DNA of 64,000 bases from Fodinibius salinus. GTDB taxonomy: Bacteria > Bacteroidota > Rhodothermia > Balneolales > Balneolaceae. The stretch is from the NCBI RefSeq assembly GCF_008124865.1, contig NZ_VNHY01000002.1, forward strand, positions 248,001-312,000, in the 5' to 3' direction. Of this stretch, positions 8,583 through 24,350 are shown in pieces. Both the position numbers and the translations under genes were made by a program. The notes below the pieces were generated by a model. It did no database searches and was not told the origin of the DNA. It was given only the letters and a program-made list of their open reading frames with translations. Position 1 is the first letter of the stretch, and the number at the start of each line of letters is the position of its first letter.

Positions 8583-8656
8583 GCGCCCGTAGCTCAACTG
8601 GATAGAGCGTCTGACTTCGGATCAGAAGGTTGAGGGTTCGAATCCTTCCGGGCGTA
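8583..8656 (+). tRNA. tRNA-Arg (anticodon UCG)
   Basis: A 74-base cloverleaf can be drawn by hand: acceptor GCGCCCG pairing with CGGGCGT (first pair G-U), D-arm GCTC/GAGC, anticodon arm TCTGA-CTTCGGA-TCAGA with anticodon TCG, and T-arm GAGGG-TTCGAAT-CCTTC. CCA is not encoded. It is directly followed by a terminator and a tyrosine integrase gene, so its 3' half is the likely attachment site of the downstream element. Confidence 0.95.
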
Positions 8657-8676
8657 CACCTCTAAAACAGTACATA

Positions 8677-8711
8677 AACCCCGCTTATTTAATTATAGGC
8701 GGGGTTTTTTG
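8677..8711 (+). terminator. Intrinsic terminator after tRNA-Arg
   Basis: The stem ACCCCGC / GCGGGGT with an AT-rich loop is followed by a run of T. It ends the tRNA transcript before the integrase gene. Confidence 0.85.
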
Positions 8712-8840
8712 TTTGTATTTAGCCCATCTTCCTACCCCTTCTGTATGAAATATTTTCATAATTCATACATATTTTACTGGACTGATGTTACATATGATGT
8801 TACATTACTCTCCAACCTTAACTACTCATATGAAAAAAAT

Positions 8841-10010
8841 ATGGCCAGTCTAAGAAAACGCAACAACTACTACTCTATCGTTTTTGCCACGCGGGTTGAT
8901 GGCGATCTCATTCAAAAAACCTATGCTCTTGGTACCAAGTACAAAAAGATAGCCGAGCAAAAGAAACACCACTACGAAAAGTTATATGAAGCTGGTGAAA
9001 TCAATCCATTTGCTGATGACTGGAATCTTCAGGAGTATGAAAAAATGCAGGAGCTGAAAGGTACTTCTGTTGTAAGCCCCATCTTAAATGAACTGCAAAA
9101 GAAATTCTTAAGAGAAAAGACAAACGTAACTGAAAAAACAAAGAAAACTTATAAGTACATCATACGTCAATTTATGGAAGGAGTGGGCTACACAATGCCC
9201 GTCACAAGAATTGATGCAGATGATATTCGTGCGTTTTGCCTTCGAGATGACTTAGCCAATGCTTCAAAAAAGAATTACCTTAAACACCTGAAAGTATTCT
9301 TCAACTGGCTGGTAGCAGAAGAATACATAGAAACCAATCCCTGTGATAAAATTGCCGTGCCCAAAGTTCGAGATAATCTCGTCGATAAGATTATAGAAGA
9401 GGATGACCTTGATATAATTTTTAAAAAATTTAGAGAGTATCAGTTAAAACACAAAAAGGCTCGTAATATTCAATCCTCTGATCAAATGCAGCTTTGGTTT
9501 AAACCGCTAATAACACTGGCTTTTTATACTGGAATGCGGCGTAAAGAAATCATCCAGTTGCGGTGGGAGCATATCAACCTCAAAGAGGGATTTATCAGAG
9601 TTACAGATACTAAAAATGGTTCGGAGCGGACAATACCCATTTTTGAAACGTTATATTGGCTTTTAGTTGCCTGGAAAAAACTTATGGGCAATCCTAAAAA
9701 GGGATTAGTTTTCCCGAGTCCAAAATCAACTCCTGATCGAGAAATTGCAATGACGGGGGATAATGTCTCTAAACGTTTTAAATTTTACGCCACAGAGGAA
9801 GCTAAACTGAAAGACACTGTAAATTTTCATGGCCTCAGACATTCTTGCGCAACCTTCATGCTACGCATTGGCTTCAATGTAATTGAAGTTAAAAATATGC
9901 TTGGCCATAAAAGTCTTGAAGTAACCAATCGCTATGTTCACTTGGTTGCGAAAGATCTAATGCGTTCTGCTAACCGAAATGGTAAAATGAATTATCTGAA
10001 TGAAGCATAA
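8841..10010 (+). CDS. Tyrosine recombinase/integrase of the tRNA-Arg element
   Basis: Site-specific recombinase expected to integrate and excise the element at the adjacent tRNA-Arg. The 389-residue product has an N-terminal arm/DNA-binding region (about 1-75), a SAM-like core-binding domain (about 85-190; KTYKYIIRQFMEGVGY) and a catalytic domain with all visible active-site residues: Arg in TGMRRKEIIQLRWEHI (about 231), HGLRHSC (about 330), His of MLGHKSLEVT and Tyr of TNRYVHL (about 364). The frame is open a further 44 residues upstream, but that part is Tyr/Phe-rich and unlike integrase N-termini; the ATG at 8841 begins the typical MASLRKRNNYYS. The last 11 bases overlap the next gene. Confidence 0.95.
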   Translation: MASLRKRNNYYSIVFATRVDGDLIQKTYALGTKYKKIAEQKKHHYEKLYEAGEINPFADDWNLQEYEKMQELKGTSVVSPILNELQKKFLREKTNVTEKTKKTYKYIIRQFMEGVGYTMPVTRIDADDIRAFCLRDDLANASKKNYLKHLKVFFNWLVAEEYIETNPCDKIAVPKVRDNLVDKIIEEDDLDIIFKKFREYQLKHKKARNIQSSDQMQLWFKPLITLAFYTGMRRKEIIQLRWEHINLKEGFIRVTDTKNGSERTIPIFETLYWLLVAWKKLMGNPKKGLVFPSPKSTPDREIAMTGDNVSKRFKFYATEEAKLKDTVNFHGLRHSCATFMLRIGFNVIEVKNMLGHKSLEVTNRYVHLVAKDLMRSANRNGKMNYLNEA

Positions 10011-10836
10011 GATACCGGCTACAAGATTTGACTCTTTATCAAAAAGAGATTTATTACTTAAGCTTACGGCTGATCGGTTTTCCAAACTCTCCAATGATTT
10101 AAATTTTGAATCAGATATTAAACGATATCAGGCTACCAGTATCACAGCCTTAGCATATCTAAAGGAAACCAATCAATATCGCAGGCAACTTCAACTCTGC
10201 CTTAAAAATTTCGCCGGTAGAACAGCCGAGACCTTTCGCCCAGAGTTTATTTCAGCCGTTAGAAAACTGTATCAGGAGCATTTAATAAACCTGGGTCGAA
10301 GCGTTATTGAATTTTCTGAGCAAAAAGTAAACCGAAAGAAATTCCTGGATATAGATTTCAGTAGTGCCGTAGTTAATCCACACTTTTCTGGTATTCTGGA
10401 GAATCTCTTTAATGAGTATGGGGAAAATGTTCTTAATCTAGACCATGCTCCCTGGAGATGTAGAATGGCTCGCATCTATAATTGCTCAAAAGATACCATG
10501 ACCCGGTTGGAAGGCAAGCTTCGGACTATTGGACAATTCGGTTGCCTCGATGATGCTATTTCATTTTTAGAGGTCCGCATAGGCCTGCACGGCAAGTATA
10601 CCTTTAAGGTTTTAGTTGATAATTTGGATGAACTAATCAATGATTTCCTTATTGATAGCTCCAACGGACATATCAATAAAGTAAAAGCTCAAAAATCAGT
10701 TGACGAGCTTGTAAAAGAAGCGGCCAGGAAATATGAAATCCTAAATTCTCCTAACTATCTCGTTAATCCGGCAGCTTACAAGTCCATTCTTAAACACCGG
10801 ATTAAATCTACCCTGAAAAACAAAAAGTTTTCTTAA
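10000..10836 (+). CDS. Unknown protein translationally coupled to the integrase
   Basis: I do not recognise this 278-residue protein. Its ATG lies inside the integrase 3' end (11-base overlap), so the two are co-translated and it probably works with, or regulates, integration. It is soluble, basic and helical, rich in Lys, Arg and Leu, without signal or membrane segment. A central piece (CRMARIYNCSKDTMTRLEGK) could be a small HTH-like unit but this is a guess. The C-terminus is Lys-rich (KSTLKNKKFS). A directionality or accessory DNA-binding role is only inferred from position. Confidence 0.75.
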   Translation: MKHKIPATRFDSLSKRDLLLKLTADRFSKLSNDLNFESDIKRYQATSITALAYLKETNQYRRQLQLCLKNFAGRTAETFRPEFISAVRKLYQEHLINLGRSVIEFSEQKVNRKKFLDIDFSSAVVNPHFSGILENLFNEYGENVLNLDHAPWRCRMARIYNCSKDTMTRLEGKLRTIGQFGCLDDAISFLEVRIGLHGKYTFKVLVDNLDELINDFLIDSSNGHINKVKAQKSVDELVKEAARKYEILNSPNYLVNPAAYKSILKHRIKSTLKNKKFS

Positions 10837-11035
10837 ACTGATTGAAATCTGGATAAACAAACCTATCCTTCTGCTAAATAGAGCCCATTAATTCAGGAAA
10901 AATTACAGATTTTGATTTTTAGCACTAAAATTCCCTGTTGATTTTCAAAATCTGTTTTTTCCTGGAAGTGTATTTTAATAGAGTTTGCCTTTTCTTTAGC
11001 GCCATAAAATTTTTGCAACCCCAAAGATATCATTT

Positions 11036-11317
11036 ATGAATTCTCAAGATCCCAAAGAAAATTTAATGGCCACCATTGCTATTCTCGATGCCAAATTAGA
11101 TACCATTCTTAACAAGCTGAATGCAGAGCCTGATAAATCAAAGTTCATGACAGCTAAAGAAGTTGAAGCTCTAATTGGATTACATCATCGTAGCATACTC
11201 AATAGAAGCAATCTGCCTCCCAAAGACAAAAACTTTGTACCATTTCACCAGTTTGGAACTCGCCGAAAATATTTTGAGCGAAAAGTCATAGAAAAAATAT
11301 TTTTGCCAAAAGTGTAA
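11036..11317 (+). CDS. Small excisionase/AlpA-like DNA-binding protein
   Basis: A 93-residue protein with a short N-terminal coiled helix (IAILDAKLDTILNKLNAE) followed by a winged-helix type motif of the MerR/excisionase class: FMTAKEVEALIGLHHRSILNR, then a basic wing FHQFGTRRKYFERKVIEKIF. This arrangement is typical of excisionases and small phage regulators that bend att-site DNA. It lies between the integrase pair and the repressor switch, the expected place for a recombination directionality factor. No clear Shine-Dalgarno precedes the ATG. Family assignment is by pattern only. Confidence 0.75.
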   Translation: MNSQDPKENLMATIAILDAKLDTILNKLNAEPDKSKFMTAKEVEALIGLHHRSILNRSNLPPKDKNFVPFHQFGTRRKYFERKVIEKIFLPKV

Positions 11318-11391
11318 CAAATCTCCTCCAACTGACTCTTGTATCTATTTTGTTTTTGTAACTAACAAAATAAATCAAGTAGGAGTGATCT

Positions 11392-11580
11392 GTGCCAAAT
11401 ACTAGACAACCAACGCTACAAGTACCCAATGAAAACCACATCAACAACAAAAAGAAAGTGCTTACGCTTATCGAACAGCTTTCTTCAGTAGTTCAAGAAG
11501 TGCACTCTGAACATCCGGATCAAGCCGCAGGTGCGGTTGCTCGGATAGCTGATCTTCGATATCACCTACAAGCTTCTTAA
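11392..11580 (+). CDS. Possible 62-residue protein overlapping the repressor gene end
   Basis: The GTG start is preceded by a good ribosome-binding site (aggag, 7 bases away). The product is soluble and helical (VLTLIEQLSSVVQEVH) with no recognised motif. Its last 113 bases run antisense to the 3' end of the repressor gene, which is the stronger call there. It could be a real small phage protein or the chance complement of the repressor coding region. The part before 11468 is not explained by any other gene. Confidence 0.35.
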   Translation: MPNTRQPTLQVPNENHINNKKKVLTLIEQLSSVVQEVHSEHPDQAAGAVARIADLRYHLQAS

Positions 11581-11881
11581 TCTCTTTCATGCGGTTATCA
11601 AGCAACTGCTTTTCTTTCAGCTCTTCGCTAATATCGGCCATTTCATTAACGGTAAATGGTGCGCCCTCTCCCGTTAATAGCCAATTAAGATTTATCCCTG
11701 ATTGTGCAAACCGTATTAGCGTGGAGCTGTTTACTTCCGTCTTCCCTCCATTTTTTAATTCTGAAATCACAGACCGATTTACTCCCGTTTCCCGCTGCAT
11801 TTCAGACACATTTCCATCGTAATACTTCTCAAGCAGGTACCGAACATTATCTTGTAATGTTTCGCCAGATTTTTTCTCCAA
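11468..11881 (-). CDS. XRE-family phage repressor (CI-like)
   Basis: A 137-residue protein with an N-terminal helix-turn-helix (about 18-70; VSEMQRETGVNRSVISELKN) and the motif NLNWLLTGEGAPF, which is typical of lambdoid-type repressors and related prophage regulators. The C-terminal half is a coiled helix (SEELKEKQLLDNRMKEIKKL), probably for oligomerisation. There is no LexA-type peptidase domain, so induction would not be by RecA-stimulated self-cleavage. It is divergent from the Cro-like gene at 12077, and repeated ATCACATCA words lie between them. The genetic-switch layout supports a temperate element. Confidence 0.88.
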   Translation of the reverse strand: MEKKSGETLQDNVRYLLEKYYDGNVSEMQRETGVNRSVISELKNGGKTEVNSSTLIRFAQSGINLNWLLTGEGAPFTVNEMADISEELKEKQLLDNRMKEIKKLVGDIEDQLSEQPHLRLDPDVQSALLELLKKAVR

Positions 11882-11911
11882 AATTCCTCTTTTCCTATAC
11901 TCTTGGTTCTT

Positions 11912-11986
11912 ATGTGATTGGGAAAATGCCCTTCTTAAATATTTTCGATCACATCATTTTTTGTTGTTTCGTTACTATCACATCAC
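11912..11986. promoter_or_regulatory. Candidate repressor operators in the divergent switch region
   Basis: The 195 bases between the repressor and Cro-like genes contain the word ATCACATCA twice as a direct repeat (11948-11956 and 11977-11985, 29 bases apart) and its inverted core ATGTGAT once at 11912-11918. Repeated words in a divergent phage control region are expected operator half-sites for the repressor or its antagonist. A TATACT at 12035-12040 could be the -10 of the rightward promoter, but no good -35 is visible. Confidence 0.55.
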
Positions 11987-12076
11987 TACTTTATCCCTGT
12001 AGGTATCGGTAACGTTTAACTGTAACCATCCGATTATACTACTTCCCCATAAATTTTAAAAGACAGAAATACAATT

Positions 12077-12394
12077 GTGAACGGACCAATAACAAAATAT
12101 GACATTAATCGAACCCGCCTGTCGCTCATTAAACAGGAAATTTTCCAGCAGTTCGACTCTTATAATGAGTTCCGTCAGGAACTGTTTCCCGACGTCAAAT
12201 TAAACACCTTTCGCCAATGGTTTAAAAAACCCTATTACATTTCTGACCAGCGTCTTTGTCATATGGAAAACACCCTGGGAATAACTCCTGCCCAGGTCAG
12301 AGCAAGACTGACAGAAGAATTCAACCTGCCAAGCCAGCTACTGCAGGTAGCCAAGGGAATTAAATTTGAATTTATTGAACCTCAACTTACCTGA
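12077..12394 (+). CDS. Cro-like small early protein
   Basis: A 105-residue protein starting with GTG, first gene of the rightward early operon and divergent from the repressor. It contains a possible HTH region (YNEFRQELFPDVKLNTFRQW) and a segment like a second small DNA-binding unit (LCHMENTLGITPAQVRARL). It resembles no family I can name with certainty; a Cro/Cox-type role is inferred from size and place. The next gene begins 12 bases after its stop. Confidence 0.65.
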   Translation: MNGPITKYDINRTRLSLIKQEIFQQFDSYNEFRQELFPDVKLNTFRQWFKKPYYISDQRLCHMENTLGITPAQVRARLTEEFNLPSQLLQVAKGIKFEFIEPQLT

Positions 12395-12406: not shown

Positions 12407-12682
12407 ATGGCAACCATTAAAACGCGCTATACCCTTGGGGATACCATCCAGTTCATAGACAGCGATGGCAACAAACGTAAGGAAATCGTCCGCATGATCG
12501 AAACACAGATCGTAGAAGGTTACGACCTCTGGGTGATATACGGATATGGTGAAGACCTCTATAAGCTCAACCATGTAAGTGAACACAAAATTTTAATATC
12601 TCAACGACAAATAAATGAGCAGCAACACCCAGGAAGAGTCCTTAACACTAGTATCGCCAAACAACCGGCAACAACCCGATGA
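12407..12682 (+). CDS. Small beta-rich early protein of unknown function
   Basis: A 91-residue protein. The first 65 residues look like a compact beta-barrel (TRYTLGDTIQFIDSDGNKR, then EGYDLWVIYGYGEDLY), reminiscent of small SH3-like or KOW-like folds. The C-terminal 25 residues are polar and overlap the first 68 bases of the helicase gene in another frame, indicating tight coupling of the two. No catalytic residues are evident. Function unknown, possibly a helicase accessory factor. Confidence 0.6.
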   Translation: MATIKTRYTLGDTIQFIDSDGNKRKEIVRMIETQIVEGYDLWVIYGYGEDLYKLNHVSEHKILISQRQINEQQHPGRVLNTSIAKQPATTR

Positions 12683-14741
12683 CTACGGGCCAGCAGTATC
12701 GAATTCTCAAAATGAACCTTTCGAATATGTCGACAGCTCCGATCCCCTGGATTTTGGTTGGTATCGCAATGAAACCGATGGCACCAGTCGCCGGATCGGT
12801 ACCTTCGATATCGAAATACATTCCAAGATCATCCGCTACAATCCCGAAACACTAAAATGGGATTCGACGCTCTATGAATGCCAAGTGAGCTGGCTAACCC
12901 CAGAAACCCGAAAACTTACACAGAGCGAGCTGTTCGTGCTGGAGCCGGAGGACTTGTTGTCCAAGAAAGCATTTCAGATTCAGATCTTTAAGCATTCCTA
13001 TCAATCGGCTCGCTTTAAGTCTGATGATGAGATCCTCTTCTTTATGAGCTTCCTGTGTAACCGGTGGCAGCCGCAGACCGTGTATGAGTTCAATTACTAC
13101 GGATTTATCGAACACCATGGCTACACCTTTTATCTGACGCGCAACGCCTTAATAAATATTCCGGATGATCACCTTCGGGAGCCCCAATACATGATAGCGC
13201 CCGACAGAGACTCTGGCCTGTTCCCCATGGTAGCTGCCGACACTACCTTTTACGTGAAACCCGGACGCATTGAACCCGCCCCGTTGTTAGATCTTCCATC
13301 GCCAACAGATGGCTTTTACAGCGATGAGGAACATCATCTATTTACCGGGAAAGAGCTCCAGTACTTTATCGATACCGTGCGAGATAAATTTGGAGAGCTT
13401 ATCGCCGGACAACAACCCGAGAAAAAGGCGGAAGGATATCTCATTTTCTCCTATATGCTCTCCTTTCTGTTTTTCGACGAGACCTACGATGTATTTAAAC
13501 ATGTGGTCTTTTTGTACCTATTTGGAGAACCATCAACCGGTAAGGGACAACTGTCTCAAATTATGCTCAATTTCTTTGGCCAATCTTTTACCGACGTTGA
13601 TTCCAACCCTACGCTAAAATCAGCTGAAAACAAGCTGGCCAATCACAGCAAGATCCCCGTAATCATGGATGAGTTTGTCCCCGGAAAAGGCAAGATCACG
13701 CCACAGGTATTTAATATGTGGTACGAATTGCGACAACGTGGGGTAAGCGCCTCCCACGATCGGACCAAAAACGCCTGGAGTCCTGTTCGGTCGCAATTGA
13801 TGTTTATCTCTAACTACAAACCGACCGAAGACCACTTTCGCTCGCGGTGTATTATGATCGAATATGCCAAAGACAAACGGGGTTCGGTGGATAATCTTTG
13901 GTGGTTTGATAACCACAAAAAAGAGATGCAGCGACTTTTCCTGTCGCTGCTTTACAAGTTTAATGACTTTAATCGGGAGCTGTTCAAAAGTGAGCTACTC
14001 TGGACCAAGCGCCTGCTTACCGAAGCCGTTGAGGAAGAATTAGGGCGACGAAGTGACCAAGAAGGCGTTCGTTTTCAGATTAAAGACCGTCAAATCGAAA
14101 ATATGGCGGCCCTTATTACGGTGGACCTATTTGTCTGTCGGCCCGGTGATGTCCAGTTCGCGGAACTGGTTGAACAGTCAGCTCAAGAAAGAGCCAAGGT
14201 AAGCGAAGAGGATCTACGGGAGATGCAGAACCTGCTTCGGGATTCGCGGGTATCCACCGAAATATTTCGTTATGGAGTAGAGTTCTTAGCCAATTCAGCA
14301 GAACGCGAAGTACACCAAACACCACTTCAGCAGTTCCTAGCCAGTATTGAGATCATGAACGATAACGGGGAGCTGCCGAAACGATACTACGGCTGGAACA
14401 GCAAGGATGGGCTGGTCATGTATTGGAGTGGCATTTGGGACGCCTACACCAACTATAACAAAGGCCGGGAGTATATCAGCCAGGATATCATCCGGGAAGA
14501 AATTGAAGCCTTGGACCTAAACGGAAAAGCCAAAACAAATTATTACAGCTACGAGGATCCGGTGAAGGGTACCGTAAAAGAAAGCCGACATGGCTACCAT
14601 ATTCCCCGTAAACATCTAACGCCAACCTGGCTGCGCGCCTTTGGCAAGCGGGAGGAGGCGAACATCATGTTGGAAGAGCAAGCCCGCCAGCCGGCCACCG
14701 AATACCAGACAAGCACCGGTGATAGCTCGCCACCATTTTAG
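12615..14741 (+). CDS. Phage-type replicative helicase/ATPase (D5/SF3-like)
   Basis: A 708-residue protein, likely the replication initiator or helicase of the element. The N-terminal 280 residues lack a recognised primase motif. A P-loop ATPase core follows: Walker A GEPSTGKGQL (about 305), Walker B-like VIMDEFVPG (about 350), a motif with MFISNYKP (about 395) and a nearby Arg pair (DHFRSRCIMIEYA), in the style of phage/plasmid D5-like and SF3 helicases. The C-terminal 250 residues are helical and end in a short winged-helix-like part. It lies after the switch region and directly before a phased repeat array, as expected for an initiator beside its origin. Confidence 0.8.
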   Translation: MSSNTQEESLTLVSPNNRQQPDDYGPAVSNSQNEPFEYVDSSDPLDFGWYRNETDGTSRRIGTFDIEIHSKIIRYNPETLKWDSTLYECQVSWLTPETRKLTQSELFVLEPEDLLSKKAFQIQIFKHSYQSARFKSDDEILFFMSFLCNRWQPQTVYEFNYYGFIEHHGYTFYLTRNALINIPDDHLREPQYMIAPDRDSGLFPMVAADTTFYVKPGRIEPAPLLDLPSPTDGFYSDEEHHLFTGKELQYFIDTVRDKFGELIAGQQPEKKAEGYLIFSYMLSFLFFDETYDVFKHVVFLYLFGEPSTGKGQLSQIMLNFFGQSFTDVDSNPTLKSAENKLANHSKIPVIMDEFVPGKGKITPQVFNMWYELRQRGVSASHDRTKNAWSPVRSQLMFISNYKPTEDHFRSRCIMIEYAKDKRGSVDNLWWFDNHKKEMQRLFLSLLYKFNDFNRELFKSELLWTKRLLTEAVEEELGRRSDQEGVRFQIKDRQIENMAALITVDLFVCRPGDVQFAELVEQSAQERAKVSEEDLREMQNLLRDSRVSTEIFRYGVEFLANSAEREVHQTPLQQFLASIEIMNDNGELPKRYYGWNSKDGLVMYWSGIWDAYTNYNKGREYISQDIIREEIEALDLNGKAKTNYYSYEDPVKGTVKESRHGYHIPRKHLTPTWLRAFGKREEANIMLEEQARQPATEYQTSTGDSSPPF

Positions 14742-14767
14742 GCGAAAATAGGAGAAATCTACGATTT

Positions 14768-15000
14768 TCTAAGAATTTGAAAACATCGTCTTATTTTCTT
14801 AGAACTTCCATTTCTCCCCCAAACAACACCCTGTAAGTATAATAATAATAGTTAGTTAGTAAATAATAATATATCTAAGAAAACCACTAAGAAACGACTA
14901 AGAACTCTAAGATCGGTCTAAGATATCTAAGATGAATCTTTGCCAATTTCTTAGACACTTAACCTATAGTTTTTACTGCACTTAACCTTGGCCTCTAAGA
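14768..15000. repeat. Phased (A/T)CTAAGA repeat array, candidate origin or operator
   Basis: The heptamer (A/T)CTAAGA occurs six times in direct orientation starting at 14874, 14886, 14897, 14906, 14917 and 14926, i.e. 9-12 bases apart, close to one helical turn. Further direct copies lie at 14768-14774 and 14994-15000, and inverted copies TCTTAGA at 14797-14803 and 14949-14955. The 270-base gap is otherwise AT-rich. Iterons of this kind mark plasmid and phage origins, or a cooperative operator. The array lies between the helicase gene and a small DNA-binding protein gene, both plausible binders. Confidence 0.7.
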
Positions 15001-15014
15001 AAATAAGAAAGACT

Positions 15015-15302
15015 ATGTCTAATTTTGAAAATCCTGAAAATACCAATAACCCGATGGGAAACATGCAATCTGACAGTGAAAATTTCATGACGATTGGCGA
15101 AGCGATCAGCTACATGTGTGAAAAGCTGGGACGCATCTCCCGGACCACCTTTTACCGGTGCGGCTATCGCAAAATGATAACCGTGCGCAGTTACGGGCGG
15201 AATAAAAGCACCGGGCGTGAAGCCGTTAAGCTATGCCGAAAGTCCGAAGTGGATTATATCATTCAGACCATTCAGGAGAATCCCCATGCCGAAAACATCT
15301 AA
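15015..15302 (+). CDS. Small helix-turn-helix protein
   Basis: A 95-residue protein, basic in its second half, with a MerR/excisionase-like DNA-binding unit: FMTIGEAISYMCEKLGRISR, TTFYRCGYRKM and a basic wing (YGRNKSTGREAVKLCRKSE). The in-frame TTG at 14988 would add nine residues; the ATG at 15015 is better placed behind aagaaag and leaves the last TCTAAGA repeat upstream of the gene. It follows the repeat array and may bind it. Its last 17 bases overlap the next gene. Confidence 0.7.
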   Translation: MSNFENPENTNNPMGNMQSDSENFMTIGEAISYMCEKLGRISRTTFYRCGYRKMITVRSYGRNKSTGREAVKLCRKSEVDYIIQTIQENPHAENI

Positions 15303-15834
15303 CCGTATAGATGAAATGGCTGTTACCGGACAAAAGATGGCAAAACCATCTATGTCAATTGATCATCTGATAGCAAAAGTAGATGAAATCAACCGCCAAT
15401 ATCATGATTTCAACGAACTTCATTTATCTGTTGATGAATTAGGCCGCCTTATTAGGGTGAATTATAAAAATGAGGGTGATTTTGAGGTCTCATTGACCGG
15501 TTGGCTCGATATGGGACAAGTTGGGACGTACCTCCAAAACTACCAACGAATGTTCTGCCTGGATCCCAACCGGCTAGATCATTTCTTTGATATGGATGAT
15601 GCTACGGAAATCATACCAATCAGCTGGCTTCGCCCCACAAGAAAACGCCCAATGGGAATTGCCAATGGGTTTACCAAAATGCGTCAGGCCTATCAGGGCT
15701 CAATACCCCGGCGAAATCCTATTTCAATTAGACCAAATGCAGAAGAAAAAGATCTTTTTGATATAATCGATGGAAATTCGACCTATTTTGTGGCCAAACA
15801 GATTGGGATGATGTCCTTGCCAGTTGTTTTATAA
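15286..15834 (+). CDS. Unknown protein coupled to the small HTH gene
   Basis: A 182-residue soluble protein of no recognised family. The start chosen is the ATG at 15286, behind a clear aggag site and overlapping the previous gene by 17 bases; a longer frame from 15217 would duplicate the other gene's coding region. It has a mixed alpha/beta pattern with a helical N-terminus (HLIAKVDEINRQYHDF), a segment rich in Asp (LDHFFDMDDATEI) and a basic middle (LRPTRKRP). It is the last gene of the early operon before the cargo region. Confidence 0.65.
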   Translation: MPKTSNRIDEMAVTGQKMAKPSMSIDHLIAKVDEINRQYHDFNELHLSVDELGRLIRVNYKNEGDFEVSLTGWLDMGQVGTYLQNYQRMFCLDPNRLDHFFDMDDATEIIPISWLRPTRKRPMGIANGFTKMRQAYQGSIPRRNPISIRPNAEEKDLFDIIDGNSTYFVAKQIGMMSLPVVL

Positions 15835-15920
15835 TAAACCGACTATTTCATCTATTTGTTCAACCGTATAACTCTTATCTTAACCCCCTCTCAAGCAAAT
15901 TTATTAGAACGAAATAATTA

Positions 15921-16790
15921 ATGAGTTTACACATAGGCGGTAGTTGGGATCCTTTAGAACGTATTAAGGAATTGGTAAACAACCTGAGAGCCCTTAGCTC
16001 CATTGCTGATGGCGGAACAACAAATTTTTCTGCTATCGATTTTATTCGACCGGTTTCTATACTACCCATTGCCAGCTATGCATTTGATCATAACATCACG
16101 ATACAAAATGCTAATTCATATTTGGATAGTATTGAATTTCCTGAGGGAACGAATACTTCTGGATTCAATAAAATTGGACAAACATACTTCCCCATTACAA
16201 AAGCTGACCTAAAATCAGCCAGTAGGGACGGGCGGGAAGAAAAGCTTAGATTTTTATCTGACCAATACCCAAAACTTTTGCGGCGGAACATTGACGACCA
16301 AGAGTTTCTTGATCGAGTTGGTAATAATGTATTCTATCTACTTATTTCCGAAATGGTTGATAATATAACGGAACATTCTGAAGCAAATTTAGCCTATATA
16401 TTTTCCCAGTTTTGGCCAGCCAATAACTCATGTGAAATCTGTCTTCTGGATAACGGGATAGGAATTTACCAATCATTAAAAAATGCGGGCAGAAGTGTTA
16501 CCGATGATATGGATGCCCTAGAAAAAGTAATTCGCCAGCATTTATCTGCCAAAGATGAATTTGGTTCACAGAAAAGGGGTACCGGAATTAAAAACACCAT
16601 TAATTTGCTATCTAATAATGAACTAAATGGCTATTTTTGCGTTATAAGTGGTAATGCCGGCTATTTTATTGACAATAGTGGACGGAATCACTTTATTAAT
16701 TTGACACAGGTTAGTTGGAATGGCACCATTATTTGTATGGGATTCCAAAAACCACCTAAACACGTCGACATCTATGAGTATATTCGATAA
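15921..16790 (+). CDS. GHKL/HATPase-type ATP-binding protein
   Basis: A 289-residue protein with a C-terminal histidine-kinase-like ATPase fold: N-box LISEMVDNITEHSEA (about 150), G1 LLDNGIGIYQS (about 177) and G2 KRGTGIKNTINLLS (about 218). There is no H-box or sensor domain, so it is not a normal sensor kinase. The N-terminal 140 residues are of unknown fold. It overlaps the next gene, a STAS-like protein, by 17 bases. Such pairs resemble the anti-sigma kinase/STAS partner-switch design. The pair sits at the left edge of the accessory region beside a restriction enzyme, so a role in element defence or control is possible but unproven. Confidence 0.82.
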   Translation: MSLHIGGSWDPLERIKELVNNLRALSSIADGGTTNFSAIDFIRPVSILPIASYAFDHNITIQNANSYLDSIEFPEGTNTSGFNKIGQTYFPITKADLKSASRDGREEKLRFLSDQYPKLLRRNIDDQEFLDRVGNNVFYLLISEMVDNITEHSEANLAYIFSQFWPANNSCEICLLDNGIGIYQSLKNAGRSVTDDMDALEKVIRQHLSAKDEFGSQKRGTGIKNTINLLSNNELNGYFCVISGNAGYFIDNSGRNHFINLTQVSWNGTIICMGFQKPPKHVDIYEYIR

Positions 16791-17094
16791 ACATATCAAC
16801 CTTCGAAAAGAATTCGATGTAAGTGCTCTAAATAACAGGGCTACTGCAAAAAAATTGGTCAAGAGAATTACAAGCTCATGGGTTAATACTGTTGTGTTAG
16901 ACTTCTCTGATATAGAATTCGCTTCTCGCTCTTTTTTGGATGAGCTTAATTCCCACCTGCCTCATATCGACAAAGAGGTTAAAAAGACAAACATGAATGC
17001 GTCTGTGAAAGAAATGGATGAATTGGTACAACAGCCGAAAGATCAGTTTGACTCAACTTTTACTAAGACTGAGTCAGAGTTATTAACTTTTTAA
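16774..17094 (+). CDS. STAS-like (DUF4325-type) protein
   Basis: A 106-residue protein with the pattern of the STAS-like DUF4325 family: basic N-terminus LRKEFDVSALNNRATAKKLV, then a core strand and loop VVLDFSDIEFASRSFLDEL. The Ser-Arg-Ser at the loop is the place where partner-switch STAS proteins are phosphorylated. The start is the ATG overlapping the HATPase gene; a longer frame from 16720 lies wholly within that gene. It is expected to act with the HATPase. The Gln/Asp-rich tail shows no domain. Confidence 0.8.
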   Translation: MSIFDKHINLRKEFDVSALNNRATAKKLVKRITSSWVNTVVLDFSDIEFASRSFLDELNSHLPHIDKEVKKTNMNASVKEMDELVQQPKDQFDSTFTKTESELLTF

Positions 17095-17147
17095 TAAAAT
17101 CCCATACCTCTGACCAAGAGTCTCTTCCCATCTTAATTATATAAATA

Positions 17148-20100
17148 CTAGCTACTTACACTCTCCTCCACAATCTCAACATCTTCCTCATCAAGACCAT
17201 ATACTTTGTATACCATCCTATCAATTTCAGCTAAATAATTGATCTTTTGTCCATCTTCATTTTGAGCTTTCTCTACAGCTCTCGATATGTTTTTCACGCT
17301 GTTTTCAGTATAGGGAGGTATTGGAAAATCTTTAAGGGTCTTAGTATTAATTTTAGGATATGCTTTCCTATCTAAATTAATATTAGTGCTTATCAGATAA
17401 TATTTAGTCAATTGGGATACAACGATTCCCAATAAAAACCTTACGAAATCAGCACTCAAATCTCTTTTAGGTTTTAACGTAATCAAATCGGTATTACACA
17501 ATATTTCATCATCCAAATAGATTGCTTTTATCCTCTCACCTGATATTATCCTTCCTAAAACTATTCTCTCACCCGAAAATAAATCCATTGAACGAGGTTC
17601 GGCTAAATGCTCACCATATTTTAAGAACTCTATTTCACCTTTGACTGCCAGAGTATCTACATTTTTCGCTTTTAAAAATTGTTTATGATCCTCTGTTTTC
17701 TGAGAATCGGAATTATAATTCTTTTGATTAACATCCTCTTGTGTTTGTGGGGGATTACCCTTTCCAACTTGATACGGTTTAAGACCGAAACTAAAATCAA
17801 AAAAGTTCCCTAATTGGTTATTACTTTCCAGATTCAATCGTTTTTTGAAAGTTAGCTGTTCAAACTCATCTTCCTTTTCGATTATACGTATCTCCTGGAA
17901 ATCAAATATTGAACCACTATCAACTTCTTCTTTAATACTATTGCCATTATATTTTTCATCAAGAGACAATAACTCGATACGTTTAGGGAGGTTTCTCGTA
18001 TTTTTCTTACCGAATAAAAGTAATGTTTCTACGACAGCATCCTCAAAAACGCTATGTACATTTACGAGTTTATCTGCTGTATTTTCTATAAAAATATGAT
18101 TTCGAAGTTTCTTATCATATCTGGTAGACAACCAATAATTGGGCACAATCATAGAATAACATCCCAACTTTCTTATTAATCGTATCCCTAACTCAATAAA
18201 TAGTCCGAATGTATTAAGCTGATATTCAGTAGTTGAATATTCCGAATTATAATAGCTTTTGAGAGGGTCTGTTAGTGAAGCCGACTTTGAAGGTACATAC
18301 GGAGGATTCCCAATCACAACATCAAATCCAGTAAACTGCCCCTCTTTATTGAGCACCTCTGGAAATTCAAAACGCCACTCAAAGGCCTGGTTATAGAAAA
18401 CACCACTTTCCTGCTCTTCTATCTCTTTCTCAACCTTTTTAACCTTCTTTTCCTGCTTTTTAATATCTTTCTTTGAAAACTTTTTTTCTCCAAACAGATC
18501 AGCATTTTGCATGAGGTCCAGCCGCCCACGCTGCTTAGAAAGCTTTTCGTAGATCGGATCATTGTTAAGCAGTGTAGTACTATACTCATCCTTAATATTG
18601 TTTATCAGCTTCTGTAAACGCTTTTTTTCAGATCGATCTCCGGTTTGCTTATAGCTGTGAACGGCCTCCTTATAATCTTGTAAGCTATGGTCACTATCTT
18701 TAAAAACGGAACTCAGATCACTGTCTAAATCAAACCGGCTAACGAGGGAATTACCCGTTTTAATATTAATATCAATATTAGGTAGGACCTCTAATTCATG
18801 GTAATCACTTTTTTCTGTATAGTACGTATTTTTGAGAAGCTCAATCCAGAGACGTAACCGGCAGATTTTCACCGAGTTGGAATTAATGTCCACTCCAAAC
18901 AAGCAGTTCTCGATGATGTGTCGCTTTTCATGAAACAACGCTTTTTGTATACGCTGCCGATTAGCTGAAATTTTACGTTTTGCAAGATGACTGCCGTGCC
19001 AAGTATGTGATACATCGTATTCAAAGAGTTCTTCATCACTGTAGGTGACGATCAGCTCGTCATTTTCTACCTCAACCTTGACATCACGAAGCCGCTTACC
19101 ATCCCGGTCAGTTAAAATTCCCAGGTCCGACTTAATGGCCAGCAATTCATTCAAGCAAGAGACCAAGAAATGACCGGAACCTACCGCTGGATCACAAATC
19201 GTGATACTGTTTACTATTTCGTTGGCCTTTTCAATATCGGTATCTGCTCGACCTATCCGGTTGTATATATCATCGAAAGATAAATATTCCTCATCCCAGT
19301 GCTGGGCAAACTTGTCCGTTACAGCTTTCCTAAGGGTTTCCCTCGCCATATACTCAGTAATAAAACCAGGAGTGAAGTATGACCCATCCTTGTACCCATT
19401 GATCTTTTCAAAGATCAGGCCCAGTACAGAAGCATTAATTAAGGACTTGTGTTCTTCCTGAATCTCTTCTCCTCCTTCTGCGGCAAAGTCGTAGGCATCC
19501 AGGAACTCAAACAGGTATTCAAGAGTATTGATCTCATCCCCGCGCCGATCTTTCAATACACTTTTGCTATAGACCGGCAGCGTCTTTTTATCATCCAGGT
19601 TTGAAATAAAAACGGATTGATGCTCCAGAGAAGAAGGATCAAATAAGGAGCTATTCAAATAGGGTATATGGCCGAACTTTTCATTTATGTCCTCGGTCCG
19701 GTCAGCCTCACGGCGCGCCAAGACCTGGAAGAACAGTTTATTCAGCTCATCATACCCATCAATGGTTTTGGATTTCAGAAATTTAAACTTCTTGTCCTGC
19801 CGGTGATAACGAAACAGTTGGGCTTCCAACAGCTTGAGAAACAGTACTCGGTTCATCCAGATAATGCTCAGCTCCAGAGCAACATTGAATAGCTGCTCGT
19901 CACGGTCAGATCCATATTTCACCTTGGGCTCACGTACCGTACTCAGATGGTCTTCCGCATCCAGTATCCGGATGGTATTTTCAATAAAGGATCCTGGATG
20001 TCGCTTGTCTTCACTGGCCCGCTCTATGTAGCGTGTATTGCTCTTGGTGGTCTCTTCCAGACCAAGGATATAGAGCAGCTCCCGATAGAACTCCCGGTTC

Positions 20101-20858
20101 AGGGTATTGCTGTCATTGGCAAAGGGTTCTTTAAGCAACTGGGTGGGCGAAAAGAACTTGAACAGCGGGATCAGTTTTTTCTCCGGCTCGCTGTCTTCCT
20201 TTGCCTTTAAGTACTTTTCGTATGATTGCAGATCAAGATGCAATCCTCTAAGTGTGGTATCCTGGCTGTCTATAAAATCTCCAATCTTGTCATACATGAA
20301 ATCTTTATTGGAGGAGACCTTCTGATCAGTCTTCCAACTCTTATAGACCTTCTTCAATGCAGATGGCCGGTAATAGCACCGCTCAAACTCCTGGGCATCA
20401 AACACAAACCAGTTTAGGGTATCCGTTATGACAATATGCTTTAGATCCTCATTGTCCTCCTCGATGCGCTGCTCCAGGTAATAGAGAACAGCCTCATGCA
20501 TCGCCTTCCGGTTGAAGTCCTCCTCGGTAATCATCTCATTTTTGTTGGAAGGACGCTTCACCTCCAACAAGACACCAACAGGATCTTTGACCTTTCCATC
20601 GGTATGGATAGCCAGGTCAATCCGTACACTGGTATTGATGTAGTAGTCATCAAAGCCGACTTCATTAAGAAAAGGAACAAGCAGGTTTTTAAAATGCTCT
20701 TCGTGTTCATCTTTCTTTTTTGCAGAGTCAATATTTTTGAGTAGCTGCCCCAGCTCTGCCTTAAAGTTATTAAAGGAGGAGCGATCAACCGTCTCTTTGA
20801 GAAAAGCCTTATTAATACTTTTTCGCAGTGATTTCGTCTCTAATTGCATAAAAGCCAA
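17148..20858 (-). CDS. Single-chain restriction-modification enzyme (Type IIG/Eco57I-like)
   Basis: A 1236-residue protein combining DNA cleavage and N6-adenine methylation. Near the N-terminus is a PD-(D/E)XK-like nuclease signature (RIDLAIH, then LLEVKRPSNK, about 80-105), as in Type I R-subunit N-terminal domains. A helical region follows, then the methyltransferase core with motif I TICDPAVGSGHFLV (about 556), the FGVDINSNSVKICRLRLW motif, and motif IV VIGNPPYVPS (about 851). The C-terminal 350 residues look like a target-recognition domain. The chain is intact. It is convergent with the HATPase/STAS pair and forms, with it, the defence-like part of the cargo. No separate methylase or specificity gene is nearby. 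Confidence 0.9.
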   Translation of the reverse strand: MAFMQLETKSLRKSINKAFLKETVDRSSFNNFKAELGQLLKNIDSAKKKDEHEEHFKNLLVPFLNEVGFDDYYINTSVRIDLAIHTDGKVKDPVGVLLEVKRPSNKNEMITEEDFNRKAMHEAVLYYLEQRIEEDNEDLKHIVITDTLNWFVFDAQEFERCYYRPSALKKVYKSWKTDQKVSSNKDFMYDKIGDFIDSQDTTLRGLHLDLQSYEKYLKAKEDSEPEKKLIPLFKFFSPTQLLKEPFANDSNTLNREFYRELLYILGLEETTKSNTRYIERASEDKRHPGSFIENTIRILDAEDHLSTVREPKVKYGSDRDEQLFNVALELSIIWMNRVLFLKLLEAQLFRYHRQDKKFKFLKSKTIDGYDELNKLFFQVLARREADRTEDINEKFGHIPYLNSSLFDPSSLEHQSVFISNLDDKKTLPVYSKSVLKDRRGDEINTLEYLFEFLDAYDFAAEGGEEIQEEHKSLINASVLGLIFEKINGYKDGSYFTPGFITEYMARETLRKAVTDKFAQHWDEEYLSFDDIYNRIGRADTDIEKANEIVNSITICDPAVGSGHFLVSCLNELLAIKSDLGILTDRDGKRLRDVKVEVENDELIVTYSDEELFEYDVSHTWHGSHLAKRKISANRQRIQKALFHEKRHIIENCLFGVDINSNSVKICRLRLWIELLKNTYYTEKSDYHELEVLPNIDINIKTGNSLVSRFDLDSDLSSVFKDSDHSLQDYKEAVHSYKQTGDRSEKKRLQKLINNIKDEYSTTLLNNDPIYEKLSKQRGRLDLMQNADLFGEKKFSKKDIKKQEKKVKKVEKEIEEQESGVFYNQAFEWRFEFPEVLNKEGQFTGFDVVIGNPPYVPSKSASLTDPLKSYYNSEYSTTEYQLNTFGLFIELGIRLIRKLGCYSMIVPNYWLSTRYDKKLRNHIFIENTADKLVNVHSVFEDAVVETLLLFGKKNTRNLPKRIELLSLDEKYNGNSIKEEVDSGSIFDFQEIRIIEKEDEFEQLTFKKRLNLESNNQLGNFFDFSFGLKPYQVGKGNPPQTQEDVNQKNYNSDSQKTEDHKQFLKAKNVDTLAVKGEIEFLKYGEHLAEPRSMDLFSGERIVLGRIISGERIKAIYLDDEILCNTDLITLKPKRDLSADFVRFLLGIVVSQLTKYYLISTNINLDRKAYPKINTKTLKDFPIPPYTENSVKNISRAVEKAQNEDGQKINYLAEIDRMVYKVYGLDEEDVEIVEESVSS

Positions 20859-21018
20859 CTAATTGAATTAACCAAACTGATTTTGAGAATAAATGTAATA
20901 AATAAAAGACAACTGTGAGGAGGGCATTGATCAGTTTCTAATACCACTTACCTTAATCAAACGAATTATTCAGATATTACTAGTAATACCTATAAGTCAA
21001 GTAAAAAACGCAAGAAAC

Positions 21019-21246
21019 TTGACATACTGCATCCGCGATTTGAGTACTACTGACAGAAATAAGTTGATTACCTTTGTCCTGCAATATCCTCCCCGCCTAC
21101 GGGCGCTGCTGGGAGCCTTACTTACCGATCAGAAATTCAATAGCGCTTTTCCCAAATTGAAGAATAGTTTGAACCCGTTAACAAAAAATAAATTTGGCAG
21201 CCTAAGTAAAATCCTATCCACAGCAGAAAACTGGAATATCGTTTAG
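21019..21246 (+). pseudogene. Short ORF, possible C-terminal remnant of an antitoxin-like protein
   Basis: A 75-residue frame that can only start at TTG (21019). The peptide is protein-like rather than random (FVLQYPPRLRALLGALL, then LNPLTKNKFG and a terminal WNIV) and reminds me of C-terminal parts of small antitoxin-type proteins of Bacteroidota that pair with AbiEii-like nucleotidyltransferases. This is memory of a pattern, not a proven match. No toxin partner is next to it. A gene remnant is the most likely reading. Confidence 0.35.
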
Positions 21247-21292
21247 ATAATATCTTGCTGACGATATGATGGAGCAAATCCTAAGTGGAGTA

Positions 21293-22474
21293 TTATAATA
21301 ATGGATTGTGCCATGACGATTTTTCCTTGTCCCACTTGTAAGAGTTAATATTCTGATGTTCCAGTGTAAACTTTTTTTCATTTAAATCCATTAAAGTTAC
21401 TTCTACATTCAATTCATCTGCAATCTCAATTAAATCATCAATAACTTTAGGTTTCATCCTGCTTCCCAGATAGATGTGCTTTATAAAAGGAAAAGGTATT
21501 TTATTATTAAAATAGTTACTGATACGACCATCTAAGATAATTCTCCATTCTTTTTCATAACTCCACTTAGTAGATTTAGTTATGAAAGCCTTATACAAAA
21601 TCTCATCTATACCAACCTTGTTTATAAGATTTCCATCTTTATCAATAGTTAGCTTTTCAAGCTTAGTTCTTGGAATGTTAACTCGGTTCGAGGAGTAAAT
21701 TATGGGGAACAGACCAGCAAGAATGAGAAGGTTTATATTATTTTCAGACGAATATGACTCATAGCCGTTTTTATTTTCATACATTTTAAAAAAATTGGCG
21801 GGCTTTAAGCTAGATATATCATATTCAACACAGAATCCTTTGTGATTATCTGAATAATGCGCCCACATTTGAATCATTCTTTCCAAATCATTTCTAGCTG
21901 GTGGATAATTCTTTGATTGTAAGTTCGCAAATGAGGCAACTCTGATATTAGTCTCACGAATTTTGTCAATTTTTTTACTTACTTCTTTTTTCGACCTTCT
22001 CCTTATTTTGGTTATTTCTTTTTTAAAATCATCGCTTTTCCTTCTCATTTTAGAGATTACTGACGAATACTCTTCATTTTCACTCAATGCGTGAGGATAA
22101 ATGCCTGGTTTAGAATCAGCTATTCGTCTATAATCTTTTTTAGAAAAACCATCAGACTTTGCTATAAATCCAGTTTTGTCAATATGTTTTAATAATAAAT
22201 GTTTTTCATAGTTTTTATAATCTACCCCTACGTGGCTATCAAAAGGATCGTTGAATGAGTTTGGGTGAGATAACCAAAGTCGCCTTTTTCTTACATCAAG
22301 TATGTTACTCGAAGTTGGGGCATAAAACTTGAATAGAGTATCTGGAATTTTATTATCCTTTGATTTAACCAGTTCTGGATTTTTAAATACTATTTTAGAA
22401 AAGGAATCATGGGATCCACTTTTTAAAGAAAAAACATCTCTGATAAAATGTTTTTGCCATTTACGTTTTGTCAT
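21293..22474 (-). CDS. DUF2971 protein, last cassette of the array
   Basis: A 393-residue protein carrying DUF2971 features: LFKFYAPTSSNILDVRKRRL, WLSHPNSFNDPFD, MIQMWAHYSDNHKGFCVEYD, WSYEKEWRIIL and the ending HIYLGSRMKPKVIDDLIE. The domain is common in integron cassettes, islands and defence neighbourhoods, with unknown biochemistry. An insert (about 125-165) is very basic (KKEITKIRRRSKKEVSKKID). Its start is 68 bases inside the attC-like site at 22542. No attC is visible after its stop, so it is the last cassette of the array or the array is truncated here. AT-rich. Confidence 0.85.
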   Translation of the reverse strand: MTKRKWQKHFIRDVFSLKSGSHDSFSKIVFKNPELVKSKDNKIPDTLFKFYAPTSSNILDVRKRRLWLSHPNSFNDPFDSHVGVDYKNYEKHLLLKHIDKTGFIAKSDGFSKKDYRRIADSKPGIYPHALSENEEYSSVISKMRRKSDDFKKEITKIRRRSKKEVSKKIDKIRETNIRVASFANLQSKNYPPARNDLERMIQMWAHYSDNHKGFCVEYDISSLKPANFFKMYENKNGYESYSSENNINLLILAGLFPIIYSSNRVNIPRTKLEKLTIDKDGNLINKVGIDEILYKAFITKSTKWSYEKEWRIILDGRISNYFNNKIPFPFIKHIYLGSRMKPKVIDDLIEIADELNVEVTLMDLNEKKFTLEHQNINSYKWDKEKSSWHNPLL

Positions 22475-22541
22475 GTTTAGATAAATTAATTTGAACCTTC
22501 ATGCTGCTCTCTGATTTATTCATAGATAAAAAATACTGCCT

Positions 22542-22659
22542 ACCTAACAAACTGGATATGAACTACCGAAACATTGGTTTGAAAAATAAAAGATTAACTA
22601 ATAAATGGTATGAGAGCTAAGAAGTGGTAAGGACTGTCCACGTTGAGGAGAGATTAGCT
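22542..22659 (-). repeat. attC-like recombination site after the Ymh cassette
   Basis: Read on the minus strand, the site runs from an R''-like AGCTAAT (22653-22659) and L'' with CAACGTGGACAGTCC to L' GGTAGTTCATATCCAG and a perfect GTTRRRY core GTTAGGT (22542-22548). The two ends can pair as an imperfect hairpin, as folded attC does. Confidence 0.65.
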
Positions 22660-22708
22660 AAATATTTTTTGTAATAGCTATGGCGACTTGAACCACAATA
22701 GTAATTTA

Positions 22709-23551
22709 TTAATCGTTATTTTTACGCAAATCTGACTCTGCTTCGAGCTGGAAAAGTTTATTTAAAAGTAAAAATTCAGAAATTTGATCACTTAAAGATT
22801 GTCGCTGCTCACGATGAGCTTTAGGATTACGAAATGCCATGTACACACCCACAAAAATCTGTGCCCTGCCTTTTTGTTCAGCAGTATTAATATCTGGCCA
22901 GTACAACACCGAATCTTCTTCAAGAAATGATTTTGAAAATAACTTAGATCCATGTTCTTCTATTCCAGTACGCTCACGAACTACATCTTCCAGTCTTTTA
23001 TATCCTTGGAAAATCTGCTCATTTGGCGATTCCCTAAATTTACTGGCTAAGTCTAATAAACGCGGTTCGATTAAACCCAATGGAAGTATTGGGGCTATTT
23101 TCTGATTCAGCGTTTTATTTAAATCCAAATCTAAATGTTCTTTTAAGACATAGTCTCCCCAGTTTACAGCTTGAGCTGATTCTGATTTTTCAATACGCTC
23201 TATATCATCTTTAGTGAGAGCAGAAGCATCAAGTCTAGAAAGAAAGTCCTCACTTACAGATATTTCTGATACATCGATTTCTAGCTTGTCAAGTAAGGCA
23301 AGTATAAATGAAAATGCGGTTGCACCTCCGCCCCTATAATCCGATGCAAATCCAGATTTTACAGCAAGGAAATCACCAACTCCTATATCAAGTAATAAAG
23401 CATGATGGTTATCATTTGAAAGAATCCAAACATGATTTATGGATGTGTTAGATTGAATTATTCGAAGTACTGCTTCTTTACAATCATTAGTACCACCTGA
23501 GATACCAACATATTGGATACCAGCAAGCTCCTTATTTTGGTTCTCTGTCAT
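22709..23551 (-). CDS. TIGR02391 (Ymh-type) domain protein in a cassette
   Basis: A 280-residue soluble protein. The C-terminal 110 residues carry the TIGR02391/Ymh signature (FVGVYMAFRNPKAHRE, with EEHGSKLFSKSF and LYWPDINTAEQKGRAQ before it), a domain found in Abi-like and cassette-borne proteins. The N-terminal half (VGISGGTNDCKEAVLRIIQ, then a glycine-rich YRGGGATAF) is not recognised. It is bounded by attC-like sites on both sides. The HNxxxxR-like end (NPKAHR) recalls nucleases of the HEPN type, which is a family-level inference. Confidence 0.8.
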   Translation of the reverse strand: MTENQNKELAGIQYVGISGGTNDCKEAVLRIIQSNTSINHVWILSNDNHHALLLDIGVGDFLAVKSGFASDYRGGGATAFSFILALLDKLEIDVSEISVSEDFLSRLDASALTKDDIERIEKSESAQAVNWGDYVLKEHLDLDLNKTLNQKIAPILPLGLIEPRLLDLASKFRESPNEQIFQGYKRLEDVVRERTGIEEHGSKLFSKSFLEEDSVLYWPDINTAEQKGRAQIFVGVYMAFRNPKAHREQRQSLSDQISEFLLLNKLFQLEAESDLRKNND

Positions 23552-23574
23552 TGAATTAAATTCTTTTTTAGTTA

Positions 23575-23695
23575 GGCTAGCGGCACCCCGTATAAGTTAA
23601 CACTGGATTATTAATTTATTTATAAAATACAAGGTTAATGATAAAAAATGAGGCTAACAAGAAAGGGACAGCAGCTCCGTTCGCTGATTATATGC
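23575..23695 (-). repeat. attC-like recombination site after the HNH cassette
   Basis: The weakest of the six sites. On the minus strand an R''-like GCATATA (23689-23695) and L'' CAGCGAACGGAGCTG lie just after the HNH stop; the far end has L' CTTATACGGGGTGCC and a core-like GCTAGCC (23575-23581), which differs from GTTAGCC by one base. It was accepted because the L' pattern CTTATnnnGnnGnC is shared with the site at 28144. Confidence 0.45.
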
Positions 23696-23696
23696 A

Positions 23697-24350
23697 TTAA
23701 TGAAGGTGTAACCACACTTCAAAACCTTTAAAGAAGACCAACTCCATTATTCCACCTTTAGGATTATCCACGAAATATCTTCTGTAGTAAAATACCTCCT
23801 CATTTTGACCGAATTTTTCCATATGATTAAGCCCTTTGTCTCCATGATCTGCAACTTCTTGAAGTGTTGAGTTTATATCAGAATCCTCCCAATATATATT
23901 TGGAGTAAGAGCAGATATTTGACCATCCCAATGCTCATTTTTTTCGTGATAATAAAGTGCATAGCCCATTCTTTCGAACTGTTTAATTATTCTATTATGG
24001 TCAGTACTGATTACGAAATGTTTTTCATCCCCGATATTTTTGTATTGACTATTCTGGACAATAATCCTTTTTAACCCCTCATCTTTTTTTAGCGCTCGTT
24101 TAATCTTTGTGGAGTAGTGTTCTTTAGCTAAAGGTCCATTTTCATAATGAGCAGTTATAACAGCTAAAAGGTATGAATCATCGGTAGATTTTTGTGAATT
24201 ATGTACCTCACAAGATGGTACTGTGATTAAATTTTTACGATAATCCTCACTACCCTTCAAGTCTTTTGTTTCAGGGAAAAAACATTTAGGAGGTACATGC
24301 TCTTTTGAGGTAGCTTTATTATCACACATGTAACATTTTTGTTCGCTCAT
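23697..24350 (-). CDS. HNH-like nuclease-fold protein in a cassette
   Basis: A 217-residue protein with an N-terminal zinc-binding, HNH-like pattern: CYMCDNKATSKEHVPPKCFF, then LITVPSCEVHNSQKSTDDSY. The EHVPP and CxxHN elements match a class of HNH-family proteins common in integron cassettes. The C-terminal part is beta-rich and may recognise a substrate (LTPNIYWEDSDI). Whether it is an active nuclease cannot be seen. The start is 14 bases inside the upstream core site, typical for a cassette gene. Confidence 0.75.
   Translation of the reverse strand: MSEQKCYMCDNKATSKEHVPPKCFFPETKDLKGSEDYRKNLITVPSCEVHNSQKSTDDSYLLAVITAHYENGPLAKEHYSTKIKRALKKDEGLKRIIVQNSQYKNIGDEKHFVISTDHNRIIKQFERMGYALYYHEKNEHWDGQISALTPNIYWEDSDINSTLQEVADHGDKGLNHMEKFGQNEEVFYYRRYFVDNPKGGIMELVFFKGFEVWLHLH

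Follow-up and report, generated by a model that had tools for sequence, protein, structure and literature searches.

An overlapping gene pair in an integrated element of Fodinibius salinus, encoding a GHKL ATPase/kinase-like protein (K) and a small STAS-like protein (S), is in our judgement a switch of the CapK/VapK–CapS/VapS kind that belongs to a distinct clade (the SRS clade, i.e. with a Ser-Arg-Ser loop in the S of the window), acts through S on an effector encoded elsewhere and is carried as accessory defence or stress cargo; we give this reading a probability of about 0.6. The window, that is the whole stretch of DNA analysed, comprises 64,000 nucleotides (contig NZ_VNHY01000002.1, positions 248,001 to 312,000), and all unprefixed coordinates refer to it. 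If the reading is right, a kinase–STAS module has been wired to further targets beyond both known outputs, the arginine at the phosphosite makes it possible to test directly whether that position must be phosphorylated, and one regulatory module links bacterial and archaeal mobile elements. It was only in June 2026 that kinase–STAS switches of this kind were linked to immunity in bacteria, with the description of CapKS and VapKSC by Chambers et al. (2026, EMBO J 2026; PMC13373217).

Table 1. Features of the window that bear on the K–S pair
Feature	Position	Strand	Remarks
tRNA-Arg(TCG), left attachment site of element	8583..8657	+	tRNA call
Tyrosine integrase of element	8709..10010	+	PHROG integrase E 1.5e-57
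Core segment common with second G360 element L082	11577..15836	+	76% DNA identity
K, GHKL ATPase/kinase-like protein	15921..16790	+	289 aa; ORF listing
S, STAS-like (DUF4325-type) protein	16774..17094	+	106 aa from preferred start
Ser51-Arg52-Ser53 of S	16924..16932	+	Arg52 on VapS phosphoserine column
Type IIG restriction enzyme-methyltransferase, context	17148..20858	-	PADLOC REase_MTase_IIG E 5.7e-219

The initial annotation had described a lone GHKL ATPase without H-box that overlaps a DUF4325/STAS-like gene, and both open reading frames are indeed present (Table 1), with an overlap of 17 nt, while Pfam gives no histidine-kinase dimerisation domain in K. The frame of S opens at an upstream in-frame ATG at 16720; we prefer the later start at 16774 because the homologue in locus L047 starts at that residue (MSIFDKHINL against MNIFAKHIDL in the window), and the overlap is therefore not 71 nt. 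At the sequence level the two proteins fall into families to which no function is assigned, namely PHROG 3364 for K (E 2.6e-31) and PHROG 20761 for S (E 3.4e-5). The Pfam matches of K, to T5_p143 (E 0.015) and HATPase_c (E 0.15), lie far under cut-off, and those of S, to DUF4325 (E 2.9e-4, 20.9 bits against a cut-off of 23) and HSA (E 0.14), are likewise sub-threshold; an assignment of K to T5_p143, a phage tail-completion family, was dropped in favour of the model result given below. A search by sequence for solved homologues gave none for K and weak, unrelated matches only for S. Scans of viral contigs with the kinases of the window, of psiM100 and of L071 returned no relative, and those with the kinases of Bacteroides phage BF1-TP2 and a fecal phage returned near-copies only.

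K-family matches at E 1e-6 or better number 45 and come from 41 of the 394 phylum genomes; in 33 of the 45, the gene directly downstream on the same strand matches DUF4325 at E 0.01 or better, so that the pairing of K and S is far above chance. The K family is patchy, with a match in one of the seven other same-genus genomes among those listed (G360). At two loci (L059, 9537-10823, and L067, 9695-10942) K and S are fused into single proteins of 428 and 415 aa, respectively, which match positions 104-408 of the PADLOC DrmA model PDLC02567 (E 5.7e-37 and 4.4e-32). A link of the pair to DISARM is not claimed, as the K and S profiles found no K–S pair at three DrmA loci.

AlphaFold models were made from the window proteins and from those of five related loci. 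The K model (mean pLDDT 63.7, with 30-57 in each block across the first 90 residues) has SpoIIAB as its top match (Z 10.5, rmsd 3.2, 135 residues), followed by MutL (8.8), the phage T6 topoisomerase (8.1), GyrB (7.5) and Hsp90-type proteins (about 7.3). The S model (mean pLDDT 77.9) is matched best by TM1442 (Z 8.4), and next by RsbV (7.9), RsfB (7.8) and RsbS (7.6); STAS domains dominate the list and anti-sigma antagonists lead it, at Z values near the 7-8 range that, according to the tool, unrelated models can reach. Seven residues of K (E144, N148, H152, D177, G179, G220 and G222) are identical in all 51 aligned homologues and, to judge from the alignment, they are the GHKL ATP-site residues. 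The N-terminal segment of K shows a weak likeness to a STAS profile (E 5.9e-4, probability 28.9%). As predicted structures, the K and S models independently point to a partner switch of the SpoIIAB/SpoIIAA type. The partner-switching logic proposed in the initial annotation thus agrees with a SpoIIAB-like K model, an RsbV-like S model and the relation of S to VapS described below.

The published switches are described in PMC13373217 as follows. CapK is an HTH-STAS-GHKL kinase and CapS a STAS-wHTH repressor, encoded upstream of immune operons; VapKSC consists of the STAS-GHKL kinase VapK, the STAS antitoxin VapS and the PIN toxin VapC. The two systems control immune operons or a PIN nuclease upon DNA damage. 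CapK is activated by ssDNA, the conserved aromatic residue for this activation being W68 in CapK and F54 in VapK, and deletion of the N-terminal HTH of CapK had no observed effect. VapKSC gives about 2-log protection against phage Bas42, which is abolished by VapC D28A, VapS S48A or VapK F54A (PMC13373217). In the literature searched the name VapKSC was met only in this article and DUF4325 in two further ones, and no other description was recognised as being of the window type. PMC7924643 records a Francisella prophage in which a 293-aa protein is followed by a DUF4325 protein, between repressor and integrase; the parts seen of PMC7824862, PMC8540584 and PMC9252829 added nothing about the K–S pair.

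In the 40 neighbourhoods read (five weak matches, in G162, G025, G245, G006 and G297, were left out), K–S is followed immediately by a PIN-nuclease gene at 16 loci, with one more cut by a contig end. The catalytic residues D, E, D and D are conserved in these PIN proteins (alignment, by eye); the Pfam PIN model matches five of the seven that were tested (E 5e-9 to 9.7e-5; L057 and L081 just below cut-off) and gives no match in L073 or L074. Several of the K–S–PIN triples come after type I restriction genes (by eye; N6-methylases are located there). In a kinase tree that holds one K per locus the PIN-linked rows form one group (support 99/96), with a PIN gene in all 17 rows, and L071, one of its members, has a VapC and a VapS that match those of the solved Escherichia complex 9z7o (E 1.4e-43 and 7.7e-38, respectively). 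On this sequence evidence the PIN-linked clade is of the VapKSC kind, and because its member matches 9z7o the published mechanism belongs to the K–S family.

The K of the window falls into another group of the tree (also 99/96), whose ten rows are the window, L046, L047, L050, L051, L043, psiM100, a Halobaculum plasmid, Bacteroides phage BF1-TP2 and the fecal phage. We count 11 clade members, i.e. with L044, a close relative of L043 that is absent from the tree, and with L046 and L042 as one locus. They span Balneolota elements, phages, the archaeal provirus psiM100, the haloarchaeal plasmid and others, and the clade is often carried on mobile elements. Profile-profile comparison of S (six clade S proteins aligned) with VapS gives a probability of 90.9% (E 1.2e-6); judged by this alignment S is related to VapS, which places the pair with the CapKS/VapKSC kinase–STAS switches.

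The clade S proteins have a common loop motif, [ST]-R-[SA], which in L051 and on the Halobaculum plasmid was taken by eye from open frames, and both in ungapped register and by hhalign Arg52 of the window falls on the column of VapS S48. This column holds Arg in 11/11 clade members and Ser or Thr in 14/14 VapS (those that the S profile found, out of 17 PIN-linked loci), so that the SRS loop, earlier proposed as the site of phosphorylation, is not supported as a canonical phosphosite. The published phosphoswitch may therefore not apply to the window pair. An Arg at this position is not specific to the clade, since L083, which lies outside it, has one as well. In the CapS-like protein of L082 the loop Ser stands one residue later, level with Ser53 of the window, which would make Ser53 the likelier acceptor; a search of plasmids for relatives of the L082 CapS- and CapK-like proteins, made for the phosphosite register, found none. 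The C-terminal residue of S is F, I or V in ten of the 11 clade members and A in Halobaculum.

Restriction and defence genes are enriched near the wider K–S family. Within 10 kb, N6-methylases accompany at least 8 of the 33 pairs against 1.27 expected (simulated P 3e-5), integrases at least 6 against 1.32 (P 0.0017; the integrase close to the G187:C4 pair is not among the six) and ResIII helicases, weakly enriched, at least 7 against 3.0 (P 0.024), P values that ignore kinship, as L071, L072 and L076 are near-copies and L057 and L058 have an identical K. A PADLOC comparison covered the 20 loci on longer contigs among the 33 (L063 and L065 being near-copies). The 120 proteins of their neighbourhoods brought up 203 models at E 1e-20 or better, against 28 for 116 controls taken from random sites on the same contigs at a distance of 20 kb or more, the counts being of models hit and not of proteins. 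The alternative outcome of mainly housekeeping contexts devoid of defence enrichment was not seen.

Within the SRS clade a clear defence-type neighbour occurs in 5/11 members, namely the window (IIG enzyme), L042 (HTH and peptidase, capP model E 2.3e-13), L047, L050 (PDC-S37 and PDC-S48) and psiM100, where the third gene next to the K–S pair of the inserted fragment IFa, ORFD (L003, 6144-7622), encodes a candidate-defence protein of PADLOC, PDC-M11A (E 1.7e-119), whose N-terminus looks PIN-like (Pfam PIN E 0.15; E 3.5e-6 with our own PIN profile, in a one-sequence search). For the other six, one to three neighbours each were scanned and no clear defence match was found, the two clade phages included. 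The weak matches were to mad1 (E 7.1e-8 in L051 and 1.3e-3 in the fecal phage) and to a CARF model (E 8.9e-4 in Halobaculum), and we regarded the ABC-ATPase matches in L043, at best E 5.6e-23, as generic. The association with defence, a role in which had been thought worth testing, is supported for the family by the enrichment and by the phage protection reported for VapKSC (PMC13373217), and the support is thinner for the window clade. The Type IIG-like enzyme is convergent with the pair, as described earlier (Table 1); as an obligate partner it is ruled out by L042, which has a 97%-identical K and different genes past its pair.

The element that carries the pair is integrated in tRNA-Arg(TCG) at 8583. 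The 3' half of the tRNA-Arg recurs beyond the window, at G000:C2:343643-343691, as a 49-nt repeat of 88% identity where no tRNA gene is called, which suggests a candidate attR and an element of ~87 kb that extends past the window. The K–S pair begins 85 nt past the end of the common core segment (Table 1). L042, from an uncultured Aliifodinibius, matches window positions 8582-12268 and 12422-17095 at 90-92% identity and diverges immediately past S. Past the core, L082 (5297-14104) carries a IIG enzyme split over two ORFs, then a CapKS-like pair together with ThiF/E2-like/JAB genes of the ubiquitin-like kind, and no SRS pair occurs in the stretch read. G187 has, next to the same tRNA-Arg, a K that is 56% identical to that of the window; homologues of PD-T4-10 A and B (E 1.2e-28 and 2.7e-10) come after it, with an integrase about 5.6 kb on. 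The K–S pair is the first cargo unit after the shared core.

Other contents of the window and of the element are recorded here in their own right. On the minus strand, positions 17148-29739 hold defence-type cargo that includes the IIG enzyme, DUF5677, DUF2971 (PDC-S31, E 1.3e-39), Hypoth_Ymh (Aga_HEPN, E 5.9e-9), DUF6602 (PD_DExK, E 1.1e-19; NucC, E 4.2e-10) and a TIR/SEFIR-TPR protein (bSEFIR, E 1.6e-10), and the candidate element of ~87 kb also holds metal-efflux genes (by eye). A 2420-aa protein (36608-43870) joins an N-terminal RelA/SpoT domain (Pfam E 2e-13) to SNF2/helicase domains, an unusual fusion. Two adjacent small proteins of 206 and 273 aa (44516-45989), which have no PHROG matches and are clustered with a transglycosylase and an ATPase, are possibly virion-like products of an undescribed integrated virus, which is a guess.

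Taken as a switch of this kind, the pair probably responds to DNA damage. K would bind S in the manner of SpoIIAB and SpoIIAA and would probably be activated by single-stranded DNA, as published for CapK. Activated K would then most likely phosphorylate S, at Ser53 or Ser51, which flank Arg52, and thereby alter which partner S holds, so that S would release or capture an effector. As S lacks a DNA-binding domain and the pair has no toxin gene beside it, the target of S is most likely a protein encoded elsewhere in the element cargo or in the host. The pair itself would be accessory defence or stress cargo and not element core, because L082 has the same core yet no SRS pair in the stretch read. 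In favour of this explanation are the SpoIIAB and STAS folds, the relation to VapS, the PIN-linked sister clade, the third gene of psiM100, the cargo status and the neighbourhood enrichment; against it stand the arginine column, the ssDNA aromatic that is not placed in K, the lack of an adjoining target, the low pLDDT of K and the near-background Z of S. A more specific proposal, which we advance tentatively and at less than even odds, is that the clade forms a third, output-free branch of CapKS/VapKSC, spread by mobile elements of bacteria and archaea and with an arginine fixed at the phosphosite, which therefore signals via a neighbouring serine or without phosphorylation and acts in trans on defence effectors that belong to the host or are co-resident.

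Three other explanations have to be weighed. The pair might serve the element itself, i.e. sense DNA damage and control the element's excision, its replication or the expression of its genes, as would fit its place directly after the common core in two sister elements and the G187 pair beside the same tRNA-Arg with an integrase in reach; we consider this unlikely, since the second G360 element has the same core without an SRS pair in the stretch read, since a DNA-binding domain is absent from S and since other clade members reside in unrelated replicons. Quite improbable, too, is a counter-defence decoy, in which S mimics VapS/CapS, cannot be phosphorylated at the usual site and locks host toxins or repressors, while K sequesters host STAS proteins or ssDNA. 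The arginine at the phosphosite column (11/11 clade members, 0/14 VapS) and the presence of the clade on phages, a plasmid and integrative elements are what such a decoy would lead one to expect, but the phage and plasmid members reflect the collections searched, so that the mobile share is biased, K retains ATP-site residues that a decoy would not need, K and S are distant from VapK and VapS, and psiM100 has a third gene of its own with a PIN-like N-terminus.

A classical anti-sigma/anti-anti-sigma switch on a sigma factor is suggested by the model matches to SpoIIAB and RsbV, and we regard it as very unlikely. In agreement with the initial annotation no sigma factor was noticed, by eye, among the neighbour genes, and the clade includes the archaeal replicons psiM100 and the Halobaculum plasmid; to our knowledge archaea are without bacterial sigma factors. 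A sigma-factor target was rejected as unlikely on these grounds.

The kinase–STAS switch of the window, which we prefer to these alternatives, can be placed among known systems at several levels. Phrog_3364 and DUF4325 (PF14213) are the sequence families of K and S, names without function, and the DUF4325 match of S falls under the curated cut-off. With SpoIIAB/SpoIIAA and RsbW/RsbV the pair shares, by model, the fold of both halves; it differs in the extra N-terminal segment of K and in having SRSF where the DS(S/T)G loop, the loop sequence of SpoIIAA/RsbV-type partners, stands. Like CapKS it is a kinase–STAS gene pair that adjoins immune genes and R-M systems, whereas its S has no winged helix (Pfam shows DUF4325 and a sub-threshold HSA), its K has no HTH match in Pfam and no immune operon lies directly downstream on the same strand. 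The column of the ssDNA-binding aromatic (CapK W68, VapK F54), sought without the published sequences, was not located in K. Compared with VapKSC the window has no PIN gene third in order (the whole window, searched as six-frame stretches >40 aa with a PIN profile from the PIN-linked clade, had no hit at E 5), S has Arg where VapS has Ser/Thr at the phosphosite column, and K lies outside the PIN-linked clade. The VapKSC kinase is STAS-GHKL; K is GHKL by model and has an N-terminal STAS likeness at low probability. At the same time the pair resembles VapKSC in that a GHKL kinase is followed by a small STAS protein, in its defence-gene neighbourhoods and in an S that is related to VapS.
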